Shown piece by piece: positions 9,855-12,163 of a stretch of DNA of 24,019 nt. The stretch is from a virus. How positions within the stretch are numbered: position 1 is the stretch's first letter; every line of letters starts with the position of its first letter. The DNA is taken from positions 1-24,019 of IMG/VR virus record IMGVR_UViG_3300046010_004814; one strand, written 5' to 3'. The notes beneath the pieces were generated by a model, which worked only from the letters and a program-made list of their open reading frames with translations, ran no database searches and was not told the origin of the DNA. The translations under genes were made by a program, and so were the position numbers.

Positions 9855-10175
9855 GTGGCTAGCTACAGCACAAACGTTGCGGTCAGTTGGAACGGCACAC
9901 CGTTTGTCGAAGTCACGGGACTTTCGTGGACATACGGCGGCGGTGCTGTCAAAGGCCGTAGCGTCATTTGGACCGACGAGGCTGGCACGTGCAGCGTCGA
10001 GTGCCTTGGCACTGCGAACACGGCCACCAGCAACTACGGCGTACGTGGCGACCTAGCGATTAGTGGCGGCGGCCAATCCTTGACCAACAAGGCAGTATGG
10101 GAGTCGCTGAGCGTGGCGAACGAAGTGAACGGCGTCACCCGGTTCACCGTCACATTCAAACTTCTGGACAACTGA
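9855..10175 (+). CDS. Tail protein, second tube-like candidate
   Basis: A 106-residue protein rich in Ser, Thr, Gly and aromatic residues: NVAVSWNGTPFVEVTGLSW, YGGGAVKGRSVIWTDEAG and VNGVTRFTVTFKLLDN. The fold looks all-beta, and it directly precedes the tail chaperone gene, the usual place of the major tail protein. Start GTG 9855 is preceded by AGGGAG at 9843-9848. Whether this or the 9460 protein is the tube subunit cannot be decided from sequence; both may be virion components. Confidence 0.55.
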   Translation: MASYSTNVAVSWNGTPFVEVTGLSWTYGGGAVKGRSVIWTDEAGTCSVECLGTANTATSNYGVRGDLAISGGGQSLTNKAVWESLSVANEVNGVTRFTVTFKLLDN

Positions 10176-10178
10176 CCA

Positions 10179-10532
10179 ATGGGACTCAAAGAACAGATCA
10201 AAGCAGCAAGCGTTCGCAAGCCGCTGAAAGTGCACGTGAAAGAATGGAACCTTGACGTGTACGTGCGAGTGCTAAGCGTGGGCGAGCGTGATGCTTGGGA
10301 GTTGGCTTGGCTCGACATCCGCAACAAGGGCGTTACGAAGTTTGACAACTTCAGGGCGTTCTACCTTGCTCGCACTCTCTGCGACGAACACGGCGTGCGA
10401 CTCTATCAAGACAACGAATTGGAAGAGGTGGCGGCGCTTGATGGTGCCGTGATGGGTGAACTGTTCGATGTGGCACAGAAGCACAACAAACTCACGGAGG
10501 CGGACGTAGTCGAACTAGCCGGCGAGCTTTAA
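10179..10532 (+). CDS. Tail assembly chaperone, upstream part (gpG-like)
   Basis: A 117-residue protein that coats the tape measure before tube polymerisation. Features are MGLKEQIKAASVRKPLKVHV, then LSVGERDAWELAWLDIRNKG and FRAFYLARTLCDE, with a helical acidic C-terminus ELFDVAQKHNKLTEADVVEL. It lies between tube genes and tape measure, the conserved position of the G/GT pair. Its last codons are GAG CTT TAA; the +1 frame from AAC (10531) continues into the downstream T-like part. Most product should end here, and a minority may be the 219-residue fusion. Confidence 0.82.
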   Translation: MGLKEQIKAASVRKPLKVHVKEWNLDVYVRVLSVGERDAWELAWLDIRNKGVTKFDNFRAFYLARTLCDEHGVRLYQDNELEEVAALDGAVMGELFDVAQKHNKLTEADVVELAGEL

Positions 10533-10533
10533 C
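10524..10533 (+). promoter_or_regulatory. Probable programmed +1 frameshift site (CTT TAA C)
   Basis: The upstream chaperone frame ends GAG CTT TAA, followed by C. A peptidyl-tRNA on CTT can slip forward one base to TTT, and reading then resumes at AAC (10531). This is the arrangement used by prfB, CTT TGA C, including the slow stop context with C after the stop. A weak purine motif (GCGAG, 10522-10526) stands in the place of the internal Shine-Dalgarno. The downstream frame lacks a start with a ribosome-binding site, which supports recoding. Confidence 0.65.
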
Positions 10534-10839
10534 GCCAGGCCATCGCGGCGGTTCCTGTTCATGCTGGCCGGGCATCTCGGGATGACGGTCGGCGAGCTCG
10601 AGCAGCGGATGGACAGCCGAGAGCTGAGCGAGTGGCTGGCGTTTGCCCGCTACTACCAGCCGCTCGACAACTCATGGGCACAGATGGGTGTGCTGGCCAG
10701 TGCCATGCTGGCCCCGTACTCACGGCGTGGCCACGTTCCAAAGCCGGCAGACTTCATCCCAACCGAAGCAGCTCCGCAACACCAGACGCAGATACTCGAC
10801 GTTCTTTCCCAAATGAAGCGCGACCTAGACGGCAGATGA
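10531..10839 (+). CDS. Tail assembly chaperone, downstream part (gpT-like, via +1 frameshift)
   Basis: Frame +1 to the gpG-like gene. Reading from AAC 10531 gives NARPSRRFLFMLAGHLGMTV, then GELEQRMDSRELSEWLAFAR, which is the start of DUF4035-like tail chaperone T segments (RPSxRF, LGMTVxEL, MxSxELxEW). This homology begins upstream of the first ATG (10561). That ATG has no Shine-Dalgarno, so separate initiation would remove the conserved RPSRRF. The part contributes 102 residues and ends one base before the tape measure gene. In lambda the GT fusion recruits tail tube protein. Confidence 0.75.
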   Translation, partial: NARPSRRFLFMLAGHLGMTVGELEQRMDSRELSEWLAFARYYQPLDNSWAQMGVLASAMLAPYSRRGHVPKPADFIPTEAAPQHQTQILDVLSQMKRDLDGR

Positions 10840-10840
10840 C

Positions 10841-12163
10841 ATGAGCACAGCACTTGGATTGGCAATGCAGATCAGTGCCAACACGGCACAGCTGGCCCAG
10901 GCTGTGGCCGATGTGAATGCCAAGCTCGATTCAATGGGCGAGGCTGGCAAGAAGGCGTCTAGCGACCTCAGCACGCTGAAGAACATTGAGATTGGCAAGC
11001 TGGCATTGGGTGGCATCAGGGCCGCAACGTCTGCGTTTACGAGCCTGGCGACTTCCGTTACCGGGGCAGTCACGTCAATCACATCGTTTGCGTTAAGCGT
11101 TGGCGAAGAGCTCGACGCCTTAAACGACGTGGCCAACCGCACAGGCGTTGGCGTTGAAGCCTTGCAGGCGTACGCCAGGGCTGCAGCCGACACGGGCGTA
11201 AGCGTGGAATCTTTTGCCAAGCAGATTCAAAAACTGACCATTAACATCGGTAAAGCCACGCTTGACGACAAAGCACAAAAAAACTTTGAAGCGCTTGGCA
11301 TTGTCTTCGAGGAACTTAAGGCCGCCACGCCTGAGCAGCAGTTTGAGCAGGTAGTGGATGCCATCTCTCGCATTGCAGATCCGGCAGAGAGGGCAGCTCA
11401 AGCCGTAAAGTTCTTTGGCAAGGGCGGCATTGAGCTTGGCGAGTTGTTCACGCTCGGCCCTGGTGCGCTCACGAGCATGCGTCAGGAAGCCATTGCGCTC
11501 GGCCAGGTGGTCGATGCCGATGCCGTCAAGGCAATCGACAACATGAACGACTCATTCGCCGCCGTGTTCGCCACGGTCAAGGGACTGACCGGCGCGATCC
11601 TCGGCGAGCTTGCGGGGCCAATTAGCCAGATCGCCCAAGACCTTCTTGGCGTGATTAGGCAGGCCGGGCCGCAGCAAATTGCCCAGCAGGTGGCTCAGGG
11701 CTTGCTCGATTTCATCAAGCTGGCTGGCAATTCGTTCTTCAAATTAGCCGAGTTCATCGAAGCGTTTATCAAGAAGTTTGCCCCGATCCTCGGGCTCGAC
11801 ATTCGCAGCGAAGCCGAAAAGGAATTGGAGGCGCTTCGCAACAAGGAGGCCGGCACAACTCGGACGGTGACTATAGGCGGCCGGTCTGTTGTGCAGTTCA
11901 CGCCAGGCGAGCTGAGCACAGAAGAAAAGCAGCGGCTGGGCGACCTTGAGCGGCAGGTGGCGGCTGAAGCATCTGGAAGCGTGCTGCGGCAGTTCCAGGC
12001 CAACTTTAACGCAGCCATCGACACGGCATCCCAATCTCTTCAGCAACGCATGGAGGCAAACGCTGCCGAAGCGGGTCCAAACGCAGCCGAGGAAAGACAG
12101 GTTTCACTGCTTGAGCAGATCAACCGCAACGGCCAAGTTGGCACCGTGGAGATCCTGAACTAG
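10841..12163 (+). CDS. Tail tape measure protein
   Basis: A 440-residue protein that sets tail length and is threaded into the cell at infection. It is mainly helical, with a hydrophobic stretch at about residues 53-90 (KLALGGIRAATSAFTSLATS onward). The tape-measure-like core is LNDVANRTGVGVEALQAYAR and ADPAERAAQAVKFFGKGG. The later region FIKLAGNSFFKLAEFIEAFI is amphipathic. Start ATG 10841 follows the chaperone stop by one base. The length is small for a siphovirus; at about 0.15 nm per residue it predicts a tail near 65 nm (general rule, inference). Confidence 0.85.
   Translation: MSTALGLAMQISANTAQLAQAVADVNAKLDSMGEAGKKASSDLSTLKNIEIGKLALGGIRAATSAFTSLATSVTGAVTSITSFALSVGEELDALNDVANRTGVGVEALQAYARAAADTGVSVESFAKQIQKLTINIGKATLDDKAQKNFEALGIVFEELKAATPEQQFEQVVDAISRIADPAERAAQAVKFFGKGGIELGELFTLGPGALTSMRQEAIALGQVVDADAVKAIDNMNDSFAAVFATVKGLTGAILGELAGPISQIAQDLLGVIRQAGPQQIAQQVAQGLLDFIKLAGNSFFKLAEFIEAFIKKFAPILGLDIRSEAEKELEALRNKEAGTTRTVTIGGRSVVQFTPGELSTEEKQRLGDLERQVAAEASGSVLRQFQANFNAAIDTASQSLQQRMEANAAEAGPNAAEERQVSLLEQINRNGQVGTVEILN

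Follow-up and report, generated by a model that had tools for sequence, protein, structure and literature searches.

Results

The two parts of a tail assembly chaperone lie in different frames

We analyzed a 24,019-nt stretch of viral DNA (IMG/VR record IMGVR_UViG_3300046010_004814; referred to here as the window). The features considered are as follows.

10179–10532, plus strand: G-like tail assembly chaperone ORF of 117 aa, C-terminus ...VVELAGEL followed by a stop (phrog_344, E = 7e-24)
10485–10526, plus strand: stretch of about 45 nt with low synonymous variation, containing invariant CGGAGGCGGA (GGAGG at 10496–10500) and GTAGT
10519–10532, plus strand: sole entry interval for the +1 frame, CCG GCG AGC TTT AAC, bounded by a TAG and by the last base of the zero-frame stop
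10527–10533, plus strand: putative slip site CTT_TAA_C, CTT TAR in all 68 distinct sequences and in an open DNA scan
10531–10839, plus strand: T-like domain of 102 aa in the +1 frame (NARPSRRF...), C-terminal part of a predicted 219-aa G-T fusion

The T segment matches Pfam Phage_tail_T (2.7e-7) and phrog_337 (4e-16), a tape measure gene (10841–12163, PHROG match) lies downstream of G and T, and the gene 5' of G (9855–10175) occupies the position of a major tail protein gene, an assignment made by position only. The locus has the lambda-type G/G-T organization, with a G-like protein between tail tube (placed by position) and tape measure genes and, from our frame and selection analysis, a T domain located 3' in another frame and joined by frameshifting; G and T are two parts of a lambda-type tail assembly chaperone. 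Read directly, the 3' end of G is GCC GGC GAG CTT TAA, with CTT at 10527–10529, TAA at 10530–10532 and AAC at 10531–10533, in agreement with the initial annotation, which had the gene ending in GAG CTT TAA C. The +1 frame is closed by a TAG at 10516–10518, which confines the frame change to 10519–10532, and direct reading finds no NTG start codon in this interval; as originally described, the RPSRRF segment can be read in the +1 frame beginning with AAC 10531, ahead of any start codon with a ribosome-binding site.

A sequencing error or a decayed gene would also break the frame, and the window has a second apparent frame break, in terL. However, the same G/T break recurs in about 110 contigs from many metagenomes, with the G and T parts both under purifying selection, and this conservation refutes error or decay as the origin of the G/T break, leaving it practically no probability.

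The terL gene is apparently split into ORFs at 471–1625 and 1439–2119, the first carrying the ATPase domain and the start of the nuclease and the other-frame ORF the rest of the nuclease (TerL_nuclease, 1.3e-31); this break may be an error, a mutation or programmed. The window contains no tRNA genes, its integrase gives no plasmid match, and matches to the portal protein are broad and point to no host.

CTT TAR is invariant at the junction

In every one of the 68 distinct full-length G-T sequences, CTT precedes TAA (31) or TAG (37) and never TGA, so that the proposed site is retained in relatives with the two stops alternating, an exchange that occurs about three times on the tree. These sequences come from about 110 contigs, retrieved as 322 locus records, many of which overlap; the set was partly gathered with T-domain queries, and its final extraction required a TAR stop. 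They are mostly lake-derived and mostly from one clade, with L462 the sole clearly distant member of the +1 group. A first search had returned 80 IMG/VR relatives, every one with CTT TAA or CTT TAG. We also scanned the DNA of 2.9 million viral contigs separately, allowing any slip codon (NNN) and any TRR stop. Of the 98 stretches obtained, 80 could be read, and every one has CTT TAR (CTT TAA in 39, CTT TAG in 41).

On a tree built without the junction, the junction leucine codon undergoes no changes, vs. 5–20 at 16 other conserved leucine columns, and CTT makes up 14% of the leucine codons in the window. The absence of TGA from the junction is notable because TGA is the commonest stop in the window, terminating 26 of 37 ORFs (from a hand-chosen gene list). 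As judged from these comparisons, CTT TAR at the junction is more than a product of chance. One sub-lineage (L543, L545, L546, L547 and L549) has leucine as the second T residue (SLRPSRRF or SLSPCRRF) and keeps CTT TAG.

The slip site resembles that of prfB, while the complete signal does not

Release factor 2, encoded by prfB, is the subject of a bacterial autoregulatory +1 frameshift at CUU_UGA_C. The phage chaperone shares with prfB the CUU before the stop and entry into the +1 frame via the next three bases, the prfB-type arrangement of CUU (YUU) directly before a stop with the product in the +1 frame holding in 68 of 68 sequences; a C directly follows the stop in 64 of these, also as in prfB. 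Unlike prfB, the phage stop is UAA or UAG but never UGA, the product is not a release factor, and the site ends a functional ORF, so that both products matter and release-factor feedback is not expected. Dependence on both RF1 and RF2, proposed initially from the TAA, needs adjustment: with TAA and TAG alternating and TGA absent, the shared factor would be RF1, and the RF2 dependence of prfB is not retained.

The phage site also differs from prfB in lacking a Shine-Dalgarno sequence 3 nt upstream of CUU, which anti-Shine-Dalgarno pairing energies reveal to be absent in most variants. The best pairing within 8 nt is −2.4 kcal/mol for the window type and −2.1 to −6.9 kcal/mol for variants, compared to −10.3 kcal/mol for E. 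coli prfB, the comparison sequence for which was confirmed in prfB as annotated in 5375 E. coli genomes. The description of this site as prfB-like is therefore correct for the slippery codon and stop, but not for the signal as a whole, since the adjacent Shine-Dalgarno stimulator is missing. A review gives 3 nt as the Shine-Dalgarno spacing for +1 shifting, reports that CUU_U shifted far more readily than any other site tested with a UAG stop, and notes that termination is weakened by C after the stop (PMC5009743).

T is translated from the junction

The segment that precedes the first ATG of T, at 10561, encodes NARPSRRFLF. Across the 68 distinct sequences, T codons 2–10 have a pS of 0.46 and a pN/pS of 0.07, i.e., synonymous sites change freely while the residues are kept; such protein-level selection argues that T is translated from the junction and that ATG 10561 is not its start. 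A separate T protein, made by coupled or internal initiation at this ATG or at a non-standard start, would be consistent with the finding that 67 of the 68 sequences have ATG as T codon 11 and with the frequent annotation of a separate T gene in related phages, but it does not account for the conservation of residues 2–10, ahead of which there is no in-frame NTG, and it leaves both the invariant CTT and the missing TGA unexplained. The one exception, the distant relative L462, has CGG in place of the ATG and yet retains GAA CTT TAG. Initiation at 10561, named at the outset as one finding that would overturn a frameshift, is incompatible with these observations, and we consider a separate T extremely improbable.

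A constrained stretch precedes the slip site

G codons 102–116 exhibit a pS of 0.18, compared to 0.54–0.58 in the remainder of G (68 distinct sequences), with codons GAG 107, GCG 108, GTA 110, GAA 112 and GCC 114 invariant and an invariant GGAGG 26 nt 5' of CUU. Over this stretch L462 keeps 47 of 54 nt, compared to a DNA identity of 54% across the remainder of G and 68% across T. The −1 sister group shows a drop in synonymous variation only at its slip site and a few codons. A scan for the upstream core returned 110 stretches, and 88 of the 89 loci read have CTT TAR, the other being a chance match in an unrelated gene. By these sequence criteria the upstream stretch is real and tied to the slip site.

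The 10485–10526 stretch probably acts as a 5' stimulator or tuner of the shift; another cause of the constraint, at the protein level or for a different reason at the DNA level, is possible. That the roughly 45 nt represent a new kind of 5' +1 stimulator, one that acts beyond the usual Shine-Dalgarno distance, is a tentative proposal to which we assign well under even probability. In one form of this proposal, a small hairpin (GGC...GCC) may bring GGAGG near CUU; in another, by analogy, the stretch may fold behind the ribosome and pull the mRNA forward, as has been proposed for T4 gene 60. We detect no signal of RNA structure around the site (fold z of 0.21), and alignments provide no covariation support there.

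Relatives read outside the clade shift −1

Canonical lambda-type G/G-T chaperones shift −1 at X XXY YYZ. The window falls outside this slippery class, with an offset of +1 and no X XXY YYZ heptamer in 10519–10532. T occupies the −1 frame in the relatives read outside the clade, which comprise about 200 IMG/VR loci, two GTDB genomes and annotated phages, and most of these carry a heptamer, for example A AAA AAC or G GGA AAC; the annotated −1 phages are Dubu, phiSASD1, Rooney, REQ1 and Moraxella, Psychrobacter and Thermobifida phages, and a heptamer was not picked out in REQ1, Madraxi, CJIE4-3 and some actinophage-like loci with long overlaps. The two GTDB matches, the only ones found in GTDB genomes, are distant and both −1. 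The nearest −1 relatives end in EELAKN with GCA AAA AAC TRA, the site of the nearest sister group, or ELTGN with ACG GGA AAC TGA. Separate G and T genes are annotated in Moraxella phage Mcat32 (L086) and Psychrobacter phage Psymv2 (L087) despite an A AAA AAC in the overlap, and Campylobacter phage CJIE4-3 (L090) has T in the −1 frame with no obvious −1 heptamer in an overlap of 31 nt.

No gap is needed to align the predicted +1 product of the window, ELAGE-L-NARPSRRF, with ELTGN-L-TARPERLF, ELAKN-L-SIRPTRRF and ELAGE-M-RARPFRRF; the alignment covers −1 products of Dubu, a sister-group member (L505), Saccharopolyspora and Psychrobacter. This gapless match of +1 to −1 products argues that evolution preserved the fusion protein and altered how it is decoded. 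On comparative grounds, an ancient phage frameshift has almost certainly undergone a switch specific to this lineage, from −1 to a +1 shift that depends on the stop codon.

Because shifts of +1 and −2 lead to the same frame, a −2 shift as in Mu-like phages, with CTT TAA incidental, would also reach T. Such shifts reportedly occur in tail chaperones (Xu 2004). They are also discussed in PMC10274946. Here, however, re-pairing two bases back is possible for none of the tRNAs in the 14-nt entry interval (GGC GAG CTT), the preceding bases vary (GGCGAG, GGGGAG, GGTGAG, GGGAAT, GGCGAA) while CTTTAR is invariant, and translated fusions show that a −2 shift would make the product one residue longer than every −1 homologue. 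No homologue among the relatives compared has the fixed −2 slip site without CTT TAA that had been put forward as evidence against a +1 shift, and we regard a −2 shift as very unlikely.

Discussion

We conclude that G and T are, with high probability, joined by a stop-dependent +1 shift at CUU-UAA/UAG. The sequence comparisons show that the slip site is fixed, that T is translated from the junction, that the sequence upstream is constrained and that the product is colinear; we infer the movement of the tRNA, the efficiency of the shift and the role of the upstream stretch. In the mechanism that we propose, most ribosomes would translate 117 codons, terminate at UAA (or at UAG in relatives) and release gpG, while in a minority, with the stop in the A site, the P-site tRNA-Leu would re-pair one base forward, from CUU to UUU; AAC (AGC or AGT in UAG relatives) would then become the next codon, and translation would continue in the +1 frame to give a 219-aa gpG-T fusion, ...VVELAGEL-NARPSRRF..., with the approximately 45 nt upstream stimulating or tuning the event. 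The missing adjacent Shine-Dalgarno sequence fits a low-level shift, because chaperones need few gpGT per gpG.

The window resembles lambda-type G/G-T systems in its genes, their order, the fusion of domains and the presumed role, but differs in that its shift is +1 and stop-dependent, whereas it is −1 in the relatives that were read, most of which have canonical heptamers. Tail chaperone T is also in the +1 frame in cluster F1 mycobacteriophages (Fruitloop, Karhdo, Maravista) and in HF1-group haloviruses; Fruitloop (L542) has an annotated +1 shift, an overlap of 257 nt, a G that ends in GAG TGA and no evident CUU-stop site, and the haloviruses have a TTT-CGC motif and no CUU-stop site. The tail shaft gene of Listeria phage PSA shifts +1 just before the stop (PMC5009743), but on a proline codon and in a major tail protein rather than a chaperone. 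All RECODE entries in which CUU precedes a stop are prfB (PMC10274946), and our search of the open-access literature, which covered few subscription papers, turned up no description of CUU-stop shifting in a tail chaperone. Within that literature, the combination described here, i.e., the genes and purpose of lambda G/G-T with a prfB-type slip site that lacks two defining features of prfB, is new.

The chaperone frameshift is among the most widely conserved phage recoding events, and a clade that makes the same fusion with a changed direction and chemistry of shifting, a stop-dependent +1 in place of −1 tandem slippage, would be a natural experiment on the evolution of recoding signals. For annotation, neither standard searches for −1 sites nor the motif set of PRFect includes CUU-stop sites. 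If our interpretation is true, a CUU-before-stop shift operates in a second type of gene besides prfB, and a site with no adjacent Shine-Dalgarno sequence and a long constrained stretch upstream could therefore reveal a new stimulator.
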